This document shows positions 5,923 through 23,261 of a DNA stretch of 41,971 nucleotides, in pieces. This stretch comes from Desulforegula conservatrix Mb1Pa. GTDB lineage: Bacteria > Desulfobacterota > Desulfobacteria > Desulfobacterales > Desulforegulaceae. The notes under the pieces were generated by a model. The model saw only the letters and a list, made by a program, of their open reading frames with translations. It was not told the origin of the DNA and searched no databases. The translations under genes were made by a program, and so were the position numbers. Every line of letters starts with the position of its first letter. The first letter of the stretch is position 1. The stretch spans positions 1 through 41,971 of the forward strand of contig NZ_AUEY01000031.1 in NCBI RefSeq assembly GCF_000426225.1, written 5' to 3'.

Positions 5923-8900
5923 ATGGACAATAAAAGAATTATATCCAAGGCGATATATTCAGCCAAAAAAATTTGGCTTCATATGACAGCAGGTATTATT
6001 TGGAGCGCAGTTTTAATTTTTTTATACCAGGATTTCAAAAAAGATTCCCTCGATGATTATTCCCATCTGTTTTTAAATAGTGCATGGATTGCTGAAAACT
6101 TGATTGATTATGAAATATCAAAAATAAATGATGCAATAGGATCGTCAAAAAGGTTTTTTGAGTCTTCTGAGTCCGTAACAAAAGAAGAATTTATGAAGTT
6201 CATTGGTCCTATGATAACGGAAAATCAGAATATCATTTCAGCCTCTTGGATCCCTGAAATAGATATTAGGAATAAAGAACTTTTTGAAAGAAAAGCCCTG
6301 GAATATGGCCTCAATGATTTTATTTTAAGTGAGATTAGCTCAACAGGAGAATATGCTCCTGCCAAAATAAGACAAAAATACTATCCCGTTTTTTACTCAG
6401 AAGGCCTTACCCCGAATCAGGGCAAGGTTGGTTTGGATCTTGGAAGCAGAGCAGATCTCGCAAAATTGATTGAAAAGGCAATATCGTCCGGGCAAACATC
6501 CTCCGGCAGCATTTTCAGGATGAATGAACCTCAAAAAATTCATGGTGAAAACGGCTTAAATATTTTCTCTCCTGTCTATAAAACAAACAAAAACTCTGAT
6601 GAAAACCTGTCCGCAAAAGGTCTTCTGTATTTTATTATAAAAATAGAAGATATTATAAAATCGGCTAAAATCCACGCAGACCAGGAAGGACTTTTATTTT
6701 CGTTCACTGAGATTGATCCCCAAAATGATGCCGATAATAATTCAAAATCAGCTCATGGGACATACTCTAAAAGATCTTATCAATCCTCTTCATTTTACAA
6801 TTCAGGTGAACTGACCCATACCCACGAAGTTATCTTTGCTGATAAAAAGTATATTTTTACTTTTTCATCGACCTCGGCAAATGTTTCATCTCATATGCAG
6901 AAGAAGTTTTTGCTGATCAGTCTTCTTGGAATTACAGGATTTTTATTGTTCTTTTTTTACATAAAAAGTGTTCTTTCAGGAATGCACAAAAAAGATGAAT
7001 TCGAATATCGGAAAGCTGCTGAAAATTTACGGGCAAAAAGTCTTATCAGGTCAATAATCGACTCTATTCCCCAGGGCATATGCTGGAAAGATGTGGAACT
7101 GACTTATCTTGGCTGCAATTATTCGTTTGCAGTCTCAGCTAATTTAGAATCTCCTGATGAAATTCTCCTGATGAAAAATTCAGAAATAGAACTCTTGTTT
7201 GATATATCAGACTCTGAACAGATCGAAAAAAATATACTCCTGACCGGTAAGCCTGTCCTGCATGAAAAAGTTGAAACCTGTCTGCCCAATGGTGATTCAA
7301 AATGGATTGATATATGCAGGATCCCAATAATAGCCGAAGACAATTCCATTACCGGAATTCTTTGTATATATGATGACATAACAAATGCAAAAACAGCAGA
7401 GAAAGAGTTGTCTCGAACCAGATTGCTATTGGAAGCTGCTTTTGATCAGAACCCGGCAGGTATGATTCTTATCACTTCAGGGGATAACAGGGTTAAACTT
7501 ACAAATAAATCGGCTTTCAGATTTTTAGGTTTTAATGACGAAGACGCTGTGGATTCTTTAAAGAAGCATGATTATGTCATAGAATTAAACAAAATGCTGA
7601 AAACATATGACCGGAATGGCAGCCAGTTAGACACTGATGATGGCACTCCTTTGTTCAGGGCTTTGCATGGTGAAAAGATAATCAATGAGGAGCGCAGGGT
7701 AATAAAGAAAAATGGAGAGGTTGCATGGTGCATTATTAACGGGACTCCAATATACGACGAAAAAGGCAAAGTCGTTGCCGCGCTTGTTGTTTTTCCTGAT
7801 ATTACATCAAGAAAGGAAATGGAGGACAGACTAAAAATCAATGAAGAAAAATACAGGGCTCTTTTTGAACAATCAGGTATGGGTGTTTTTCTTTATAATC
7901 ACCAATTTGAGATTATTGACTGCAATGAACAGTTCGCACTCACCATAGGCGCACCAAAAGAAAGAATGATAGGGTTGGCATTAAGAAAACTCAAAGACCA
8001 AAGAGTGATGCCTGTACTTGAAAAAGCCATGCTCGGAGAAAAAGCTTATTATGAAGGTGATTATGTCACCACAACCAGCGGTTTATGTATCAGGGTTTCA
8101 TTTGTAGCTCTTCCGATAATGAATTCAATAAACGAAATAGCTTTTGGTTGCGCAGTTGTTGAAAATATCACTGAAAAATGGCTGATCCAAAAAGCGCTGC
8201 TTGAGAAAAATGAAGAATTGGACAAGTTCTTTTCAAATAGCCTGGATCTCCTTTGCATAGCAGGATTTGACGGCCATTTTAAGAGGCTTAACCCTCAGTG
8301 GACTATTACCCTCGGATATTCGATGGAACACCTGATCGGAAAATCATTCTGGGATTTTGTTCATCCTGAAGATATCGTGAGCACCAAAGAAGCAGTTTCA
8401 AAGCTTGTCACATCAAAAAAAGTCGTTGATTTTGTAAACAGATACAGATGTAGTGACGGATCATATAAGTGGATAGAATGGAGATCCTATCCCTCGGGAA
8501 ATACAATATATGCAGCGGCCAGAGATATTACGGCAAGAAAAAATACTGAAGATGAAATCCGCATGAGGGAGGAGCTTTTCAGGACTCTAAGTGAAATGGC
8601 CCCTGTTGGGATTTTTCTGGCCAATGAAATTGGCGAAATTATTCTCACGAACAGAAAATGGATTGAAATTACAGGTGTCACAGCAGAAGAAACACTTGGA
8701 AATGGGTGGATAAGGTATGTCTATCATGACGATGCTGCCCTGATTAATAGTGTTCTGGATAATTCGATCCGCTCGATATGTGATACAGAAACTGTATTCA
8801 GATTCGTCCGACCTGATGGGAAGATGAAAAATATAATGATTAAGGCTACGCCAATAATAAAGGAAGATGGTTTCCTGAACGGTTTTGTCGGAACAATAGA

Positions 8901-9687
8901 AGACATAACCGAAAGGAAAAAAAATGAATCGGAAAGAGAACATCTTCTTTATGAAATCAGTCAGAAGAATACTGAGCTTGAGGGAATTGTTTACGCGGCG
9001 TCCCATGATCTCAGAGCGCCATTGGTAAATATTCAGGGATTCAGTATTAGAATTGAAAAACTTACGGACGAGCTTTCCCGTCTGATAAAAATAGAATCAG
9101 ATAAAGAAAAATGTATTGAGATAATTGAATCAAAAATTCCTAATGCGACCAATTATATAAAAATAAGTGCATCAAAAATGGACACGCTTATAAAAGGTTT
9201 GTTGCAGGTCGCAAGAATTGGAAGGCGTCCACTGATTTCAGAGACTATAGACATGAATGTCATGATAGAGAATATATTGCAGACAATGGCATTTCAGATC
9301 CAGGAATCAGGGGCTAAAATCACCTGTCATAAGCTTCCTGAGTGTAAAGGAGATATATCCCAGCTTAATCAAGCTTTCTCAAACATTATTGATAATGCTT
9401 TGAAATATCAGAATCCTGAAAAAAAGCTTGAAATAATTATTTCAGGTTTCAGAAAAGAAGACAAAAATATTTATACTGTTGAAGACACCGGAATTGGAAT
9501 AAGTGAAGGCCAGAAGGATAAAATATGGACCATGTTTTACAGATTGTCGCCGTCAGGACCAGTATCCGGAGAGGGCTTAGGGCTTACAGTTGTTAAAAAA
9601 ATAATTGAGATGCACGGAGGAAAGGTCTGGGCGGAGCCTGGTAAGGATGGTTCTATATTTTTTATTGAACTGAAGGGCGCATATTGA
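5923..9687 (+). CDS. CHASE-domain sensor histidine kinase with five PAS domains
   Basis: This 1254-residue membrane kinase has a membrane segment at about 18-36, an extracytoplasmic CHASE-type sensor (about 75-250, with S-A-S-W-I-P and the Y-Y-P-V-F-Y-S-E stretch), and a second membrane segment at about 329-349. Five PAS domains follow in the cytoplasm (about 375-490, 500-630, 644-758, 766-875, 884-1003), several ending in DIT-type PAC motifs. The kinase core has H1028 in A-A-S-H-D-L-R-A-P-L, an N-box near 1153-1164 (NIIDNALKY), DTGIGIS near 1188 and GEGLGL near 1216. The phosphoacceptor region resembles the bacteriophytochrome/Cph1-type HisKA group, often paired with Rcp1-like regulators; such a regulator is encoded at 4408-4878. 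It has no receiver domain of its own. The Shine-Dalgarno is weak. R1 repeats lie on both sides of the gene. Confidence 0.9.
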   Translation: MDNKRIISKAIYSAKKIWLHMTAGIIWSAVLIFLYQDFKKDSLDDYSHLFLNSAWIAENLIDYEISKINDAIGSSKRFFESSESVTKEEFMKFIGPMITENQNIISASWIPEIDIRNKELFERKALEYGLNDFILSEISSTGEYAPAKIRQKYYPVFYSEGLTPNQGKVGLDLGSRADLAKLIEKAISSGQTSSGSIFRMNEPQKIHGENGLNIFSPVYKTNKNSDENLSAKGLLYFIIKIEDIIKSAKIHADQEGLLFSFTEIDPQNDADNNSKSAHGTYSKRSYQSSSFYNSGELTHTHEVIFADKKYIFTFSSTSANVSSHMQKKFLLISLLGITGFLLFFFYIKSVLSGMHKKDEFEYRKAAENLRAKSLIRSIIDSIPQGICWKDVELTYLGCNYSFAVSANLESPDEILLMKNSEIELLFDISDSEQIEKNILLTGKPVLHEKVETCLPNGDSKWIDICRIPIIAEDNSITGILCIYDDITNAKTAEKELSRTRLLLEAAFDQNPAGMILITSGDNRVKLTNKSAFRFLGFNDEDAVDSLKKHDYVIELNKMLKTYDRNGSQLDTDDGTPLFRALHGEKIINEERRVIKKNGEVAWCIINGTPIYDEKGKVVAALVVFPDITSRKEMEDRLKINEEKYRALFEQSGMGVFLYNHQFEIIDCNEQFALTIGAPKERMIGLALRKLKDQRVMPVLEKAMLGEKAYYEGDYVTTTSGLCIRVSFVALPIMNSINEIAFGCAVVENITEKWLIQKALLEKNEELDKFFSNSLDLLCIAGFDGHFKRLNPQWTITLGYSMEHLIGKSFWDFVHPEDIVSTKEAVSKLVTSKKVVDFVNRYRCSDGSYKWIEWRSYPSGNTIYAAARDITARKNTEDEIRMREELFRTLSEMAPVGIFLANEIGEIILTNRKWIEITGVTAEETLGNGWIRYVYHDDAALINSVLDNSIRSICDTETVFRFVRPDGKMKNIMIKATPIIKEDGFLNGFVGTIEDITERKKNESEREHLLYEISQKNTELEGIVYAASHDLRAPLVNIQGFSIRIEKLTDELSRLIKIESDKEKCIEIIESKIPNATNYIKISASKMDTLIKGLLQVARIGRRPLISETIDMNVMIENILQTMAFQIQESGAKITCHKLPECKGDISQLNQAFSNIIDNALKYQNPEKKLEIIISGFRKEDKNIYTVEDTGIGISEGQKDKIWTMFYRLSPSGPVSGEGLGLTVVKKIIEMHGGKVWAEPGKDGSIFFIELKGAY

Positions 9688-11368: not shown

Positions 11369-11662
11369 GATTGAAGTCTTGATGAAGCAGAAAAAGGCGG
11401 ATAGATTCTGTCTGAGCTATAGTTCCATAAGATGAAGTAAGCAATCACCTGATTTGACTGTGGCTGATGGTTGATGATTGGCAGTTGGCTCTTAAGTCAA
11501 GCTGAGTAAAACGGTCTTTTTTCATCGGCAATTGCCGCTTTTTGGCTTCCAAGACTATTGAAGTATGCGCTAAAGCCTGATATGGAATTTAAAAAACCGA
11601 TCAGCTTGGCATGTCTATGCTTTCATTTGTTTTCTTCAGATTTCTTCTTTGGGATATTCAGT

Positions 11663-13522
11663 ATGAGCGAGCTTCACGGAAAGTATAACGAAATTATTTC
11701 AGCCCTTGTTGGCGAAGGGATTTTGACAGATGAGAAGGTCCATTATGCTGAGAGGGTATTGTCCAAACTTAAAGGTGAGTACAAGCTGCTGGATGTGCTG
11801 AAAAAGCTTCAGTATATAACAGATGATGATATCTGGAATGCTGTACAGAAAAAGAGGGTTTCAACAAGGCTTGGAAATCTTCTTGTAGAACTTGGATATA
11901 TTTCACAGCAGCAGCTTGAGTCCGCAATCGAAGTCCAGAAAAAGGAACGTGAGAATAAGATCGCAGTAAGTCTCGTAAGCGGCTATGAAAATATTTCGGA
12001 ATTTGAGTTTGCCCAGTCCAAGGCTCTTGAACTTGGATATCAGTACATGGAACCTGATTTTGATTCAATTCCTCCTGAACTCATAACCAAATGCAGGCCT
12101 GAATGGTATGAGACTCACAGGTTTTTTCCAGTATCCATTGACGGAAAAATAATTACTGTTGGATTTACTGACCCGTCTGAGCCTAATTGTCTTGATGCGG
12201 CAAAAGAATTTTTTGGCGAAGACCTGTCGCCTGTTCTTGTACGCTCTGATTTTATCCATAATTTTATTTCAAGATATAAATCCTTTGTTCAGTCAGGAAC
12301 AATTTTTACAGGGTCAGTGTCGGTTGGCAAGGGTACTTTCCAGTCAATTATTTCTGAAGCCATAGAACGAGAAGGCGTTACAGATATTTATATAGAGCCT
12401 ATGAGAGACAGGCTATTAATCAAATTCAGGCAACACTGTGCTGTAAGGAAACATCAGGAACTGCCTCCACAGATCAAATCATCACTCTTTAATTATATTC
12501 GCGAATCATGTCTCGATGATTTTGAGGCGGATGGCTTAAAAATCAGCCATGAGTTTCATCATGAAAAAGGGCTGTTTGTTTTATCAGGAAGAATACTTCA
12601 TACAAGATTTGGTGATTCCGCAATAATCAGTTTAAGAAAACAGGAGGCAGATCCCGTTAGCCTGATTGACATGCCAATCAGCAAATATGTTGCGGAGCGT
12701 CTGAGAAATGATATTGTCGATAATAATCTGGGGCTTTTTTTGATCTGCGGAACAGAATCGTCTGCCAAAACCTCACTCCTTTTTTCTCTTTTGAAGCATA
12801 AAAAGAGAACCCAACCTGATTCAAGAATAGCCGTGCTTGAGGATAAACCTTCTTTTTATCTGGATGATGCCGCATTTTTTCAAGCAGACCCAATTGGATA
12901 TGAGCATCAAATTAAGGCAATTTCAGATTTTGCTCCTGACATTATGGGCATATCAGGAGTTACTCCTGGGAAAGCCTGCTTTGCGTTGCTTGATTCAGTC
13001 GCAAAAGGCATTCAAACCATAGCGACCCAGAGATGCACAGGTATAACCGAGGCTCTCCATTTTTTCATGGATTCCGGAACCGCATCTCTCCTTGCTTCTT
13101 CCCTGTCCGGAGTAATTGTGCAGAAAGTAATGAGACGCATATGTCCTATTTGCGTTACTCCAATATCTTTGCAGATAGAACTTGTCAGGAAGATTGGCCT
13201 GAGTCCAAACGATCTTGCCGGTCTTAAGCCTATGAAGGGAGTTGGATGCAAGGCCTGCGGCAATACCGGCTATAATGGCCAGCTGATTGCAACAGAACTT
13301 TTGATTGCAGATGAAAGATTGAGGGATGCCATCTGCGAAGTTAGATCATCCTATGCTTTAAAAAGATATATTACGGCCACGCCGGGCTTTATTAATCTTG
13401 TTGAGGACGCTATAATCTGGGCAGGTGATGGTCAGACCACTATAGATGAGATTGCCAGGGTTTTTCCAAAGAATAACAAAACCAGGCCTTTTTCCGAGCT
13501 TCAAAAAATCAGGGGGGCATAA
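11663..13522 (+). CDS. GspE/PilB-like protein with MshEN domain and degenerate ATPase motifs
   Basis: This protein has the fold order of type II secretion/type IV pilus ATPases. An N-terminal helical GspE_N/MshEN region includes R-L-G-N-L-L-V-E-L-G-Y-I-S at 69-81, continuing to L85 and Q92, which fits the c-di-GMP-binding MshEN motif. A linker, the N2 domain with T-D-I-Y-I-E-P, an ATPase-like domain and a C4 zinc site (C494, C497, C529, C532) follow. The catalytic motifs are lost: Walker A reads GTESSAKTS (363-371) instead of GPTGSGKTT, Walker B reads PDIMGISGV (near 425-433) instead of PDIIMVGEIRD, and the Asp and His boxes are unrecognisable. The protein is therefore probably not an ATPase. 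The ATG at 11663 is preferred; upstream in-frame codons to 11558 encode a hydrophobic, non-family extension. An HDOD gene follows after 2 bp. No pilus genes are nearby. Confidence 0.8.
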   Translation: MSELHGKYNEIISALVGEGILTDEKVHYAERVLSKLKGEYKLLDVLKKLQYITDDDIWNAVQKKRVSTRLGNLLVELGYISQQQLESAIEVQKKERENKIAVSLVSGYENISEFEFAQSKALELGYQYMEPDFDSIPPELITKCRPEWYETHRFFPVSIDGKIITVGFTDPSEPNCLDAAKEFFGEDLSPVLVRSDFIHNFISRYKSFVQSGTIFTGSVSVGKGTFQSIISEAIEREGVTDIYIEPMRDRLLIKFRQHCAVRKHQELPPQIKSSLFNYIRESCLDDFEADGLKISHEFHHEKGLFVLSGRILHTRFGDSAIISLRKQEADPVSLIDMPISKYVAERLRNDIVDNNLGLFLICGTESSAKTSLLFSLLKHKKRTQPDSRIAVLEDKPSFYLDDAAFFQADPIGYEHQIKAISDFAPDIMGISGVTPGKACFALLDSVAKGIQTIATQRCTGITEALHFFMDSGTASLLASSLSGVIVQKVMRRICPICVTPISLQIELVRKIGLSPNDLAGLKPMKGVGCKACGNTGYNGQLIATELLIADERLRDAICEVRSSYALKRYITATPGFINLVEDAIIWAGDGQTTIDEIARVFPKNNKTRPFSELQKIRGA

Positions 13523-13524
13523 CT

Positions 13525-14364
13525 ATGGATTTGGTTGCTCAGCTTACCCAGCTGATCAATGAAAATATTGGTACAGGCAGAACTTCTCTTCCTGTATTTA
13601 ATAAGATAGCCCTGAAGCTTCAGCAGGAACTATCTAAATCAGAGCCTGATCAACATATTATCAAAAAAATGATAAGTAATGATCCGTCTTTGACCGGGCA
13701 GCTTCTTAAGGTCGCCAATTCGGCATATTACAAGGGCATGGAAGATGTGACCACTGTCCAGGAGGCAATTTTCCGTCTTGGAACAGCTGAAGTTGGTAAT
13801 ATTGTTCTTCTTATAACCCAGAAATCCAATTTCCAGTCCAAAGATGCTTATATCCAGGAAATCATGAACAGGCTTTGGAAACATTCTGTCGGATGTGCCA
13901 TCGGAGCAAAGTGGGTCGCAAACAAGTGCGGGTGTTCTGATCTTTCAAATCAGGCATTTACTGCCGGTCTGCTTCATGATGTTGGGAAACTTTTCATCCT
14001 CACCGTTATTGATTCCCTTGTCTTGTCCGGGCATGAGGAAATCAAGGCTCCTTTAAAAACTCTTAACAGAATTATGGCCGAGCTTCATCTTGTTCACGGA
14101 TATTCCCTTATGAAGATATGGGCATTGCCAGAGATATATTGTGAGGTGGTGAGGGATCATCACAAGGAAAAAATAGATTCGAAGAACATTTTACTTCCGA
14201 TAATCAAGCTGGTTGATATGGTTTGCAACAAAATCGGTCTTGGTATTGCTCCTGACAGCGGATATGTACCTGAAGAGACCGGCGAGGCAAAGATTCTGGG
14301 ACTTGGCGATATAGATATCGCCGAGCTTGAAATTAAGCTTGAAGATGCGAAGTTTTTATTTTAA
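13525..14364 (+). CDS. HDOD domain protein
   Basis: This 279-residue protein is mostly one HDOD domain, the signalling relative of HD phosphohydrolases that usually lacks hydrolase activity. The family hallmarks are P-V-F-N-K-I-A, then D-P-S-L-T-G-Q-L-L-K-V-A-N-S-A-Y-Y (about 51-67), then the A-I-x-R-L-G pattern, and later A-F-T-A-G-L-L-H-D-V-G-K-L. Here the H-D pair is kept, and D-H-H-K occurs later, so residual metal binding is possible. It starts two bases after the GspE-like gene and is clearly co-transcribed with it. HDOD proteins are often tied to c-di-GMP, chemotaxis or motility signalling; its role here is inferred only from that pairing. Confidence 0.88.
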   Translation: MDLVAQLTQLINENIGTGRTSLPVFNKIALKLQQELSKSEPDQHIIKKMISNDPSLTGQLLKVANSAYYKGMEDVTTVQEAIFRLGTAEVGNIVLLITQKSNFQSKDAYIQEIMNRLWKHSVGCAIGAKWVANKCGCSDLSNQAFTAGLLHDVGKLFILTVIDSLVLSGHEEIKAPLKTLNRIMAELHLVHGYSLMKIWALPEIYCEVVRDHHKEKIDSKNILLPIIKLVDMVCNKIGLGIAPDSGYVPEETGEAKILGLGDIDIAELEIKLEDAKFLF

Positions 14365-15110: not shown

Positions 15111-18100
15111 ATGGAAGACCATGTTTTGGAATCTCAATTTAGAATTGAAAGAATAAAACATCTTTATTCCTATGGGCCGATGCTTTTTGCGGCAAATATT
15201 TTTGTCGGAGTTACTTTCATAGTATTCCAGAAGCCCTTTTATGGACTGACAGAGCTTTTGACCTGGTTTGCAGGTCTTCTGGTTGTTAATCTCTGGCGTT
15301 TTAAATGCTATAAGGATTCTCTTTTCGAAGGAATAAATGAAATAAATGTTGGCGGCTATGAAAAGAAAAATCTTGTAGGAATAGTTTCCACTTCTTTTTT
15401 CTGGGGCATCGCAGGGATTTTCTTTTTCTCTTCACAAGCGCCTCTGTCGCAGCTGATGACTTGTCTGACAGTTGCAGGTGTGATTTCATCCGCTGTAGTT
15501 ACTTTGTCCTCAAACCTTTTTTTCATGATTTCATTTATACTTATAGGATCTGTGCCTCTGGTCGTAAACTCGGCAATAATGAGTAATTATTATATAACAG
15601 TAATCGTTTGTCTTTATATATCAGGGCTTTTAATGGCTGGCAGAAAAGCCGGAATCCTGGTCAGGGAAACTCTCTGGCTCAGAATCAGGCTTATGAAGAA
15701 TGAATACGAACTTAGAAATACGGAAGAAAAATACAGATCCCTTGTAGAGAATATGCCTATTGCCATGTTTCGCAGCTCGATCAGCGACGGAAGCCCTATT
15801 GTCATGATTAACCCTGCCATGAAGCGTATGCTTGAGCTTGATGACTCAGATTTCCACAATTCACGGTTAGAGGATTTTTTCTGTGATACAGCCGAAGGCA
15901 AGGATTTTTTACTGAAAATATTCAGATATGGCAATGCGTCCGGTGATGATATTCGTCTGAAAACAATGCATGGGCGGGAAATATGGGGCAGTATGAGTGC
16001 CCGTCTCAATAGATGCGATGGCTCATCAGATATTTACATCGACGGAATGATAGAAGATATAACAGAAAAAAAGAGTGTTCAAAAAGCATTGGGCGAAAGC
16101 GACGAAAAATTCAGGAACCTTGCTGAAACTTCTCCGATGGGTATTTTTTTGTATCAGGATGACGTCATGATTTACGTTAATCCTGCCGGGGAAAAAATTA
16201 CAGGGTATGATCGGGACGAGCTTTTTCAAATAAGACCGCTGTGGAATATTGTTCACCCTGATTACGTGGATGACATGAGCAAAAGGGCGCAGGCCAGGCA
16301 GAGTGGTGACGGCACAATCAAACAAAGCGAATGCCTTATCATTACAAAGCAAAAAACTGAAAAATGGGTGGTTCTGGCAGGAACCTCCATTGTTGTAAAC
16401 GGGAAGCCAGCCGGTATTATTTCGGCAATGGATATAACGGATATTAAAAATGCTGAAGCCACCCTGCATCAGGCAAAAGAGACCGCCGAGACTGCAAATA
16501 GGGCAAAAAGCGAATTTTTAGCCAATATGAGTCATGAAATAAGAACTCCGATGAATGGAATTATCGGAATGACAGAACTCATTCTCGATACTGAGCTTAC
16601 AAAGGATCAGAGAGATTTTGCCGAAACAATAAGAAATAGCTCGGAGGCACTTCTGTCACTCATAAATGACATACTTGATGTTTCCAAGATAGAGGCAGGG
16701 AAACTACAGCTTGAAAATATTTCATTTGATATTAACGAGCTTGTTGAAAATGTTGCAAGTCTTATTTCAATCAGATCAAGGGAAAAAGGTGTTGAAATAG
16801 TCTGCCTTATTGACCCCGGAATACCTGCTTTTCTTAATGGCGATCCATTGAGGATAAGACAGATTCTTTTGAATCTTATGGGGAATGCAGTTAAATTTAC
16901 CCCCAAAGGTTTTGTCGAGCTCAGGCTTGAGCTTGTTGAGAGAACGATGGGGCAGTGTCTGATTGGCTTTGAGGTTATTGATACTGGTATAGGAATAAAT
17001 GAAGCAGAGCACGAAAACCTCTTTGCCCCTTTTATGCAGGCTGACGGTTCCATCACAAGAAAATTCGGTGGCACAGGCCTTGGTCTGACCATTTCGAAAA
17101 GACTGGTTGAAATGATGGGCGGGGAAATAGGTTTCAGAAGTCGTGAGGGCGGAGGCACAGTTTTTTGGTTCCGGGCAAAATTTGGTGAAGTCCCTTCTGA
17201 TGAGATCATCGCAGTGAATGAAGGAGGCGAACAGTCTGTGTTTTATGACCTTACTGATCTCAGAGTTCTTATCGTTGATGATAATCCGGTAAACCTTCAT
17301 GTCCTTGAAGGCATGCTTAATACATGGAAGTGTCTTGTTAGCCGTGCCGGATCAGCTGTGGACGCACTTGAAAAAATAGAATCATCCATTAATATGGGCC
17401 ATGGTTTTGATCTTGCCATCCTGGACATGCAGATGCCTGAAACAGATGGGTTGACTCTCGCCAAGAAAATTGTGTCAGATGAAAGGTTTGCGGGGATAAA
17501 ACTTCTTTTGCTGACGTCCTCTCCCATTGACAAAGATCAGAAGAGTGACATGGATTCTGTTTTTAATGCCTGCCTTGAGAAGCCGGTTCGAAAAGCAAGG
17601 CTCTATAAAAGTATCGCAGGCATGTTCGGCAAACCATATACTTTTATGTCTGCTGACGATCAATCTGTTTTTTCAAGAATTCCGAAGCTTAAAAATGCTG
17701 GGAGCAGAACGATTCTTGTTGTTGAGGATAATCCTGTCAATCAGCAGGTCATAATCAAATTCCTTGAGAAAATGGGACTCGGCAGTGAAGTGGCTGGCAG
17801 TGGTCTTGAGGCTGTTTCAAAACTGGAAAAAAGTTCATACGATATCATACTTATGGATATTCAGATGCCGGAACTTGACGGCTATACTTTAACAAATATG
17901 ATAAGAAACTGGAAAAATGGACCGTTGGATAATGATGTGAGTAATATCATGAGGAAAAAGGCTGCCGACACTCCAGTCATAGCGCTTACGGCTCATGCCA
18001 TGCCTGGTGACAGGGAGAAATGCCTTGCCTCAGGTATGGATGATTATGTTGTCAAGCCGATCAGGCCCGTTGACCTGTCCTTGGTTGTAGGGAAATGGCT

Positions 18101-18128
18101 TGAAAGAGATCATTTCCATATGATGTGA
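15111..18128 (+). CDS. membrane hybrid sensor histidine kinase: 6TM-PAS-PAS-HisKA-HATPase-REC-REC
   Basis: This 1005-residue kinase opens with an integral membrane sensor of about six segments (roughly 20-195) that resembles MASE-type sensors but is not assigned to one. Two PAS domains follow (about 205-330 and 335-460). The H-box is N-M-S-H-E-I-R-T-P-M-N-G with H475. The HATPase domain has N-L-M-G-N-A-V-K-F-T, DTGIGI and GGTGLGLTIS. Receiver 1 carries acceptor D772 (LAILDMQMPETDG) and receiver 2 acceptor D916 (IILMDIQMPELDG). There is no Hpt domain, so a separate Hpt protein would be needed for a full BarA-like relay. CCCCGGAG upstream serves as a loosely spaced ribosome site. The MoxR gene starts 7 bp after the stop, suggesting one transcript for an otherwise unrelated trio. 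Confidence 0.92.
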   Translation: MEDHVLESQFRIERIKHLYSYGPMLFAANIFVGVTFIVFQKPFYGLTELLTWFAGLLVVNLWRFKCYKDSLFEGINEINVGGYEKKNLVGIVSTSFFWGIAGIFFFSSQAPLSQLMTCLTVAGVISSAVVTLSSNLFFMISFILIGSVPLVVNSAIMSNYYITVIVCLYISGLLMAGRKAGILVRETLWLRIRLMKNEYELRNTEEKYRSLVENMPIAMFRSSISDGSPIVMINPAMKRMLELDDSDFHNSRLEDFFCDTAEGKDFLLKIFRYGNASGDDIRLKTMHGREIWGSMSARLNRCDGSSDIYIDGMIEDITEKKSVQKALGESDEKFRNLAETSPMGIFLYQDDVMIYVNPAGEKITGYDRDELFQIRPLWNIVHPDYVDDMSKRAQARQSGDGTIKQSECLIITKQKTEKWVVLAGTSIVVNGKPAGIISAMDITDIKNAEATLHQAKETAETANRAKSEFLANMSHEIRTPMNGIIGMTELILDTELTKDQRDFAETIRNSSEALLSLINDILDVSKIEAGKLQLENISFDINELVENVASLISIRSREKGVEIVCLIDPGIPAFLNGDPLRIRQILLNLMGNAVKFTPKGFVELRLELVERTMGQCLIGFEVIDTGIGINEAEHENLFAPFMQADGSITRKFGGTGLGLTISKRLVEMMGGEIGFRSREGGGTVFWFRAKFGEVPSDEIIAVNEGGEQSVFYDLTDLRVLIVDDNPVNLHVLEGMLNTWKCLVSRAGSAVDALEKIESSINMGHGFDLAILDMQMPETDGLTLAKKIVSDERFAGIKLLLLTSSPIDKDQKSDMDSVFNACLEKPVRKARLYKSIAGMFGKPYTFMSADDQSVFSRIPKLKNAGSRTILVVEDNPVNQQVIIKFLEKMGLGSEVAGSGLEAVSKLEKSSYDIILMDIQMPELDGYTLTNMIRNWKNGPLDNDVSNIMRKKAADTPVIALTAHAMPGDREKCLASGMDDYVVKPIRPVDLSLVVGKWLERDHFHMM

Positions 18129-21515: not shown

Positions 21516-23261
21516 CTATTCATTGTCGGATAGATCACCACCAAGCTTTAGAATGTTTTCAAGTGCAAAGGTTATTTTAGGGTCAATTTCAAGAGCCTTT
21601 TTATAGTAGCGTATTGCATTATCCCTGTCTCCAAGTTCACGATAGTTGGAGCCAATATTTGCATAATCTATTGCAGAAGATGGATCGAGCTTTATTAGTT
21701 TTTCAAATGATTCTATGGCTTTTTCATGTCTTTTAAGTTTGAACTGACAGAATCCCATTAGATTGAGTATGTCTGTTCTTTCATCATCACTTTCCATTCC
21801 TTTTTCCAGAATCTCAAGCGCTTCATGATATTTTTCCTGTTCTTTGAGGCACTGAGCCATGTATGAATAGATACTCGCTTCGTCCTGACTGTTTGGCCCA
21901 AGCTCCATTGCCTTTTTGAAAAAAGCCAGCGCCTCTTCATATTCTTCAAGCGTGTAAAGACACATGCCTGCATAGAATTTAAGATAATAACGATCCTGAA
22001 GTTTTTTATCCATCTGCATAATGATTGGCAAAGCCATGTCTGCAGGGAATTTTTCAATGATCAGCTTTGCGCAGAACATGGCAAGTGTTGTGTTTAAAGC
22101 TCTTTCCCTGAATCTTGCACCCGGAATTATCGTATAAAATGCAGGAATGCCAAGATCTTTGTGTGTCGTTTCAATAAGAATGATTTCCATTCCAAGTTTG
22201 TCAAGGCAGCTGATGGCATTTTCAATTTCTATCCTGATGTTATTGTCTGAAATATCCGGGAGATCTTCAATGTCGACTGATTTTCCTGATTTTCTTATGA
22301 AATCAGTCTGATCAAGGCTCGTAAGTTTTGGCAGGCCAGATGCCAGATAATTCGATCCTGTGTTGAAATCACCTGCAAGCTGGGCAATTTCAGTGAGCGC
22401 TCTGCTGAGGGCCTTTACAGGATCAGGCGCAGTTCCCGCTGTCCAGACAATTTCACTTTTTTCCGGAAAGGTTGATGGATCATAAGCAAGAACACCTACT
22501 GTGGGTATGCCGGTATCAAGGGAGAAATCTGAAATAAAGAGTTCAATGCCAGCTTTTTTGTATTTTTCGAGCATGCCGCAGACTATCTCATCTTTTACAG
22601 ATTCAGGCCTTATTAAAGGTACAGAAAGCTTTTTTTCACTGATTATTGAGCATACGTGTCTTTCAATAATTTCACTTATGCCCTGCATGATGGCTTCTTC
22701 CTTGCAATTTCCGGCAGAAGGCCCATTGAATTCATTGATTGCATAAAACCAGTCAAATGGAACCAATACTGGAGCTTTTTTTGTAATGTTATACCCCTCA
22801 GTCCATTCAAAAGACAGTAGATTGAAAAACTCTTTTGCTTCCTCTGCATTTTTAGCATCTTCATGAACAGATGCAGCAATAAGATCGAATGGAATGGCGA
22901 TTTTTTCAAAATCAGGAAAAGCGCCGTCTTTAAAATTTGCCTGATTCTTTTTGAAGCTGAAGAAGCTGAAACGTTCGGCAAGTTCCATTACAGCGCTTGC
23001 TTCTGACTGTACTGGAGTCGCACCTTTACCCATCTGCTTGTTGGTGCCGGTTATTTTTCTTGCATCTTTGCCGCAAACGCTGAAATAAACGGGGATGTCC
23101 AGGCGTCCGTTGTCTATTCTTTTCGTATATTCAAGTATCTGCATATTCAGTTTTGCAGTTTTTTTCTTGAAATTTCTGACAGTTTCTTCAGGAGTCATGA
23201 TTTTATCCTGATCCAGGGTAAACTGTTTTATTGCATCTGAAAGCTCTATGATTCCGGACAT
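21516..23261 (-). CDS. YcaO-like protein fused to TPR repeats
   Basis: This 581-residue protein has a YcaO domain (about 60-400) followed by at least four tetratricopeptide repeats (about 405-575, with A-L-A-F-F-K-K-A-M-E-L-G-P, A-L-E-I-L-E-K and A-I-R-Y-Y-K-K-A-L-E-I-D-P units). The ATP-binding glutamates of YcaO are readable in S-E-A-S-A-V-M-E-L-A-E-R-F and in E-E-A-I-M-Q-G-I-S-E-I-I-E-R-H. YcaO enzymes activate peptide-backbone amides with ATP to make azolines or thioamides, and others act on ribosomal protein S12. No TfuA, E1-like or dehydrogenase partner and no precursor peptide are visible. The TPR part probably recruits the substrate. GGAG precedes the ATG. The gene is divergent from hisB and leads into the HMA gene. 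Confidence 0.85.
   Translation of the reverse strand: MSGIIELSDAIKQFTLDQDKIMTPEETVRNFKKKTAKLNMQILEYTKRIDNGRLDIPVYFSVCGKDARKITGTNKQMGKGATPVQSEASAVMELAERFSFFSFKKNQANFKDGAFPDFEKIAIPFDLIAASVHEDAKNAEEAKEFFNLLSFEWTEGYNITKKAPVLVPFDWFYAINEFNGPSAGNCKEEAIMQGISEIIERHVCSIISEKKLSVPLIRPESVKDEIVCGMLEKYKKAGIELFISDFSLDTGIPTVGVLAYDPSTFPEKSEIVWTAGTAPDPVKALSRALTEIAQLAGDFNTGSNYLASGLPKLTSLDQTDFIRKSGKSVDIEDLPDISDNNIRIEIENAISCLDKLGMEIILIETTHKDLGIPAFYTIIPGARFRERALNTTLAMFCAKLIIEKFPADMALPIIMQMDKKLQDRYYLKFYAGMCLYTLEEYEEALAFFKKAMELGPNSQDEASIYSYMAQCLKEQEKYHEALEILEKGMESDDERTDILNLMGFCQFKLKRHEKAIESFEKLIKLDPSSAIDYANIGSNYRELGDRDNAIRYYKKALEIDPKITFALENILKLGGDLSDNE

Follow-up and report, generated by a model that had tools for sequence, protein, structure and literature searches.

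The 41,971-nucleotide contig NZ_AUEY01000031.1 of Desulforegula conservatrix Mb1Pa (hereafter the window, i.e. the whole stretch of DNA analysed) carries two open reading frames (ORFs) in tandem on the same strand, 2 bp apart, the first coding for a protein related to the PilB/GspE ATPases and the second for an HDOD-domain protein (Table 1). An initial annotation, made from the sequence alone, had proposed that the first protein is an adaptor sensing cyclic di-GMP (c-di-GMP), made from a retired secretion ATPase and acting with the HDOD protein, perhaps by joining a genuine PilB/GspE hexamer. As a whole, that interpretation is partly supported by our analyses, which confirm the gene arrangement, extend the pairing to a large family of relatives and identify the window ATPase as an exceptional, motif-degenerate derivative within it.

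Table 1. Features of the ATPase-like/HDOD locus (positions in the window)
Feature	Position	Strand	Basis
PilB/GspE-type predicted pseudo-ATPase, 619 aa from ATG	11663..13522	+	ORF, Pfam, family alignment, model
MshEN motif I, residues 69-92, intact	11867..11938	+	consensus from PMC5013675
MshEN motif II position, residues 100-123, degenerate	11960..12031	+	family comparison
Degenerate Walker A, residues 363-371, GTESSAKTS (G363, K369, T370 kept)	12749..12775	+	family alignment
Degenerate Asp box, residues 391-398, VLEDKPSF	12833..12856	+	family alignment
Degenerate Walker B/catalytic glutamate, residues 425-435, PDIMGISGVTP for PDVIVIGEIRD	12935..12967	+	family alignment
Degenerate His box, residues 453-460 (TQRCTG at 455-460)	13019..13042	+	family alignment
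Retained tetracysteine C494, C497, C529, C532, presumed zinc site	13142..13258	+	family alignment
HDOD protein, 279 aa	13525..14364	+	ORF, Pfam; divergence inside the family's range
Stretch with candidate metal ligands H120, H151, D152, H188, H212, H213 (residues 120-213)	13882..14163	+	family alignment

The ATPase-like protein, for which a TTG at 11558 offers an alternative start, matches the Pfam families T2SSE (residues 227-599, 4e-19; 68.9 bits against a cut-off of 24.9) and MshEN (124-207, 9e-12). The motif I pattern, the N2 sequence TDIYIEP (residues 240-246) and the four cysteines are as initially described, the binding of zinc by the latter being presumed. The second protein matches HDOD/PF08668 (4e-46; 157.5 bits against a cut-off of 22.9) and the structure 3hc1 (E 2.8e-16). 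No pilus or secretion family was matched in a Pfam scan of 20 other window proteins, two of which have no Pfam match at all, in agreement with the initial annotation. An AlphaFold2 model of the ATPase-like protein, computed from a nine-sequence alignment, reached a mean predicted local distance difference test score (pLDDT) of 75.9 and a predicted template modelling score of 0.56, with ten-residue blocks at 76-91 over residues 341-500 and at about 52-72 over residues 61-110, around MshEN motif I. It superposes on the cores of Thermus PilF and Geobacter PilB (Z 36-40, root-mean-square deviation 3.4-4.5), and the protein is accordingly modelled with the RecA-like fold of N2 and C-terminal domain (CTD) typical of the PilB/GspE family, although the other eight rows of the alignment were PilB-like and account in part for the overall fold. 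In its MshEN-N2-CTD architecture, tetracysteine site and fold, the window protein thus resembles the PilB/PilF type IV pilus ATPases (TIGR02538, PF00437), from which it differs in its degenerate nucleotide-site motifs, in its pairing with an HDOD gene and in the lack of pilus genes among the neighbours scanned. Its score against TIGR02538 is 117.8 bits, far below the equivalog cut-off of 675.65; a motif-intact member of its family (L075) also remains below, with 486.2 bits.

The window protein was used as a query to survey 389 genomes of its order (E<=1e-40), and relatives were found at 68 places in 66 genomes, with 25-31% identity excluding the window itself. Four of these places belong to a clade of divergent proteins, 786-902 aa long, that lack an HDOD neighbour, and one lies at a contig edge; in all of the 63 testable places, an HDOD orthologue is the next gene downstream on the same strand. 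The predicted frames are separated by anything from a 70-base overlap to a 35-base gap in 56 of the 63, the widest gap being 279 bases. A sample of 395 genomes of the phylum, which includes some of the order, yielded family members at 14 places in 12 genomes outside the order. The twelve loci outside the order that were compared all code for GPTGSGKT, 11 of them with an HDOD neighbour, while in the twelfth the contig ends 50 codons into the HDOD match. HDOD adjacency, which had been taken as meaningful in the initial annotation, is thus conserved both inside (63/63) and outside (12/12) the order. An HDOD-like neighbour was detected at only 1 of 48 loci of other T2SSE ATPases used as a control (flanks up to 1.5 kb), and this single locus (L184, 643 bits in the family profile) possibly represents a deeper relative of the pair. 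In that profile, near-full-length members reach at least 879 bits, as against 352-659 for the 48 other T2SSE proteins and 365 for the window ATPase; these sequence comparisons mark it as a degenerate derivative of the PilB-like/HDOD module and not as one of its typical members.

No third gene travelling with the pair was found when neighbours were clustered across the 68 loci, using a crude gene call and clusters named by eye. HDOD genes formed one cluster at 58 loci, followed by an ABC-type ATPase at 14 loci in scattered positions, and by genes resembling dnaX and recR at 7-8 loci, probably reflecting the synteny of one clade. Scanning named genomes with the single window sequence recovered only two distant relatives. 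We found no description of the PilB-like/HDOD pair in the open-licence papers searched.

The nucleotide site of the window protein was compared with that of 60 full-length relatives. The Walker A motif reads GPTGSGKT in 59 of them and GPTGSGKS in the remaining one, against GTESSAKT in the window, which also carries SGVTP at the GEIRD position. The four motifs are broken, as initially annotated, although the description of all of them as degenerate was a slight overstatement, since Walker A preserves G363, K369 and T370, and the Asp box preserves E393-D394. Changes affect 18 of 26 near-invariant positions of N2, including R278, R298, R304, R308 and R323; the choice of which N2 arginines serve as fingers is our assumption. 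As read from the alignment, the window protein has lost the residues expected to support ATP turnover in cis, together with conserved N2 arginines, and probably tight ATP binding as well.

This loss is not a common property of the family, a view that was ruled out because Walker A, GE[IMV]RD and the His box are all intact in 61 of 64 family ATPases. Besides the window, only L106, a broken gene, and L107, which is truncated by its contig, depart from this. Homologues consequently do not share the motif loss, which the initial annotation had asked of them. Intact Walker motifs at the same locus, which it would have counted as a refutation through recent decay in this strain only, occur in those 61 members and tell against it in part, but with relatives only 25-31% identical, and the nearest genomes compared belonging only to the same order, the loss cannot be dated. 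Hidden degenerate copies were sought by running an HDOD profile against the 389 genomes of the order and inspecting the 15 places not already paired. Among the 77 HDOD places detected in 70 genomes, 65 lie beside an ATPase (three with a contig-edge part only), three at a contig edge, seven are solitary and two irregular. Two of the three contig-edge ATPase fragments have intact motifs and the other, of 67 residues, is unreadable; no second full-length pseudo-ATPase was found in this search. The solitary HDOD orthologues (L208 in G051, L209 in G053, L210 in G099, L214, L217, L218 and L219) nest inside the family HDOD tree, and the ATPase was therefore lost, or the HDOD gene copied away, more than once; L208, L209 and L210 occur in genomes without a family ATPase match in the survey with the window protein. 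Two ATPase genes of single-contig genomes are interrupted beside an intact HDOD gene: L106 (G350), with a frame change and about 150 residues missing, and L105 (G256), with a frame change and its motifs kept, sequencing error being possible in both frame changes. The irregular loci of G291, rearranged, decayed or misassembled, comprise L222, where fragments of the two genes lie on opposite strands of a single contig, and L212, an HDOD gene at a contig start whose 775 bases of upstream sequence contain no ATPase.

Divergence of the window ATPase is extreme and is greatest in the regions that vary least within the family. Mean identity to the family is 0.20 in the NTPase region (0.77 for the other members), 0.24 in N2 (0.56), 0.35 in the C-terminal part (0.56), 0.25 in the C-terminal part of MshEN (MshEN-C; 0.36, lowest other member 0.27) and 0.33 in the N-terminal part (0.43, lowest other 0.33). 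Likewise, near-invariant positions are kept at 14 of 67 in the NTPase region, 8 of 26 in N2, 18 of 25 in the C-terminal part, 5 of 6 in MshEN-C and 7 of 11 in the N-terminal part, giving 55 of 139 overall, while every other member keeps a fraction of at least 0.917. The window branch measures 6.65 changes per column; the median is 0.14 and the next family member has 1.15. In quick tree searches, run without bootstrap, the window is sister to all 60 relatives in the ATPase tree, probably a long-branch effect, and lies inside the family in the HDOD tree. The reading frame is nevertheless open, with codon usage similar to that of neighbouring genes, and 38 of 50 hydrophobic core columns of the NTPase region stay hydrophobic (shuffle mean 22.5; none of 20,000 shuffles reaches 38), including 32 of the 44 core columns that are substituted. 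We read this pattern as selection that would maintain the fold and release the nucleotide site, as expected of an old pseudo-ATPase under fold-level constraint. A recent pseudogene was rejected as the leading view, since divergence on this scale has left the reading frame uninterrupted and the core hydrophobic.

The HDOD partner, in contrast with the ATPase, has evolved within the family's range. Its mean identity is 0.416 against 0.434 in the family, its branch of 0.93 is exceeded by another member (1.16), 30 of 32 near-invariant positions are kept, and a family profile built with its own sequence among the others gives it 398.6 bits. The six candidate metal ligands (Table 1) are invariant in all 60 HDOD proteins aligned (the window and 59 others), so that catalysis by family HDODs is conceivable. 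PMC4114195 describes HDOD domains as lacking key active-site residues, and Desulfovibrio DVU0330, which keeps HD residues, as only weakly active towards an artificial substrate and inactive towards c-di-GMP; PMC6543031 describes SadB, in which HDOD is joined to a YbaK-like domain and which binds c-di-GMP. The window HDOD shares the PF08668-type domain with SadB, GsmR and DVU0330, and the HD residues with DVU0330 (PMC6543031, PMC4114195), but the family HDOD has no partner domain and instead a near-constant ATPase gene upstream, with the six candidate ligands invariant.

The initial annotation gave the pair a c-di-GMP-sensing role, in which MshEN would bind c-di-GMP and relay it to HDOD, and part of the N-terminal region is in line with it. 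Motif I (RLGNLLVELGYISQQQLESAIEVQ) agrees with Vibrio cholerae MshE (PMC5013675) at 11 of 11 key positions by our own scoring, the protein exceeds the cut-off of NCBIfam NF053729 (49.3 against 38 bits), and residues 67-206 of the model superpose on MshE solved with c-di-GMP (5htl, Z 16.7), although the model is of low confidence around motif I, as given above. The second motif, which the annotation left unremarked, is lost: the window has I100, A101, V102, K120 and E123 where relatives mostly have K/R, L/I, G, L and Q, and hence lacks the equivalents of MshE R38, L39, G40, L58 and Q61. Relatives keep K/R-L/I-G at the start and L..Q at the end of motif II, but differ from MshE in the absence of its middle glycine and in an inter-motif spacer longer than the canonical 5 residues. 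A further point in favour is that D170 in the C-terminal part of MshEN, which we take to be the equivalent of MshE Asp108, is kept. The NF053729 match, however, is aligned over residues 44-92 and not across both motifs, apparently pairing motif I with the preceding segment 41-64, which has neither the RLG glycine nor the final Q. Precedents point the same way: MshE G40I shows poor if any c-di-GMP binding and no stabilisation by the ligand, Xanthomonas XpsE no longer bound once residues including R38, G40, L58 and Q61 had been changed, along with some in motif I, and c-di-GMP binding is absent in GSPII-A of Thermus PilF, of whose two motifs one is good and the other degenerate (PMC11731258). 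E123 alone would be tolerable, since a PilF variant with Q218E as its only change retains binding at 460 nM. Judged by these residues, c-di-GMP binding by the window copy is unlikely, the sensing claim is not upheld as it was written, and a c-di-GMP-sensing adaptor seems to us distinctly improbable.

The other part of that proposal, in which the protein would join a genuine PilB/GspE hexamer of the cell as a subunit without catalytic activity, finds potential partners in the same genome, which codes for eight T2SSE ATPases with Walker A intact and three T2SSF platform reading frames, and a precedent in the Walker-inactive PilT that works with PilU (review PMC11656802, as excerpted). With 18 of the 26 near-invariant N2 positions changed, arginines among them, the protein could however hardly serve the active site of a neighbouring subunit, and its conserved genetic linkage is to HDOD only; we regard a mixed hexamer as very improbable. 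Nor did a retired secretion ATPase hold up as the origin: motif-intact relatives are also HDOD-linked without conserved pilus neighbours, which places the descent of the window protein in an ATPase-HDOD pair and not, visibly, in a secretion operon. Under relaxed decay, finally, HDOD would do the work, the ATPase would be unnecessary in this lineage, and its frame would persist by partial constraint or by chance before loss. The seven solitary HDOD places, nested in the HDOD tree, and the two broken ATPase genes beside intact HDODs agree with such a course. Against it, a frame of 619 codons left unconstrained over some 6.7 changes per column would be expected to contain stops, yet it is open; the substituted core positions are hydrophobic beyond shuffles, codon usage is like that of the neighbours, and the conserved positions are kept far better in the C-terminal part than in the NTPase region. 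Relaxed decay therefore appears unlikely.

We favour instead, as the best explanation overall though at no better than an even chance, a lineage-specific locked variant of a conserved PilB-like ATPase/HDOD module. Starting from the pairing, the orthology of the pair, the motif loss in the window copy, the fold-level constraint and the ordinary evolution of HDOD, this explanation supposes in addition a contact with HDOD, a switch role and a locked state. The module would combine a dedicated HDOD protein with a ring-type, PilB-like ATPase that carries an MshEN-like domain. Because the HDOD pairing is near-exclusive and conserved pilus neighbours are lacking, the ATPase would most likely respond to nucleotides, and perhaps to c-di-GMP, as a switch controlling the output of the HDOD protein to which it binds, and would not be a pilus motor. 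In the window lineage it would have turned into a pseudoenzyme long ago, losing ATP turnover and half of a possible c-di-GMP site and retaining the fold, the cysteine-bearing C-terminal region and the HDOD partner, most likely as a conformationally locked scaffold that keeps HDOD in one signalling state. A precedent comes from Myxococcus xanthus PilB, a PilB-type ATPase which, in the portion of PMC5544727 at hand, regulates exopolysaccharide apart from pilus assembly, and whose ATPase-deficient Walker A mutant K327A strongly restores exopolysaccharide signalling, its authors linking the nucleotide-free state to signalling. The same portion shows where the parallel ends: that protein also builds pili, and no HDOD partner is mentioned there. 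The more specific claim that a phylum-spread module recruited a pilus-type ring ATPase as a nucleotide-gated, perhaps also c-di-GMP-gated, HDOD switch independent of any pilus, with the window as a natural, evolutionarily stable locked version that has lost the ATP site and half of the c-di-GMP site and keeps protein-protein function only, is advanced tentatively, as a possibility that would more readily prove wrong than right. If true, it would show that ring conformation, not work, is the output.

Several observations weigh against the locked-variant explanation. The survival of G363, K369 and T370 leaves nucleotide binding by the window protein possible, K369 being the very lysine mutated in M. 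xanthus K327A, and the M. xanthus Walker B mutant E391A did not signal (PMC5544727, same portion). HDOD stands without an ATPase at 7 of 77 places and beside a broken one in L105 and L106, so that the ATPase may be dispensable and the window copy in the course of being lost. None of the 64 family members matches the published relaxed c-di-GMP pattern twice, which makes c-di-GMP control of the two-gene module uncertain and lowers the probability of a phylum-wide module gated by c-di-GMP or nucleotide. The hydrophobicity test relies on one alignment at 20% identity, and as the aligner favours hydrophobic matches the excess is somewhat inflated. No close relative occurs among the compared genomes, the pseudo-ATPase being known from a single lineage. 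HDOD proteins are widespread in bacteria and their mechanism is unsettled, and a near-constant partner gene provides a testable route to their function. If the explanation is correct, the module would represent a pilus-motor-type ATPase that is devoted to signalling and encoded apart from pilus operons. The window copy would then be a natural separation-of-function variant: if HDOD were still bound or controlled by it, ATP turnover would be unnecessary for signalling.

Some further observations concern other relatives and the genomic surroundings. The second family copy of G377 (L093) is motif-intact and has long branches in both trees, as if the pair were co-diverging. The divergent relatives L095-L098, L183 and L187 (786-902 aa) have no HDOD neighbour in the available flanking DNA; among L095-L098, three contain two or three matches to the c-di-GMP motif pattern, and L096, L183 and L187 show no significant Pfam match C-terminal to the ATPase domain. 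An anti-phage role for the pair was considered and rejected, as the ATPase has no PADLOC match and the three weak Cas3-HD matches of the HDOD protein (E 0.002-0.0085) were taken as a shared HD fold. Large PAS histidine kinases flank the pair in the window (5923-9687 and 15111-18128) and are not conserved neighbours across the family loci, and a single protein at 21516-23261 combines a YcaO domain with subsequent TPR repeats. Elsewhere in the same genome (G000:C22:25477-27096), two T2SSE pieces in separate frames possibly represent a broken secretion ATPase gene.

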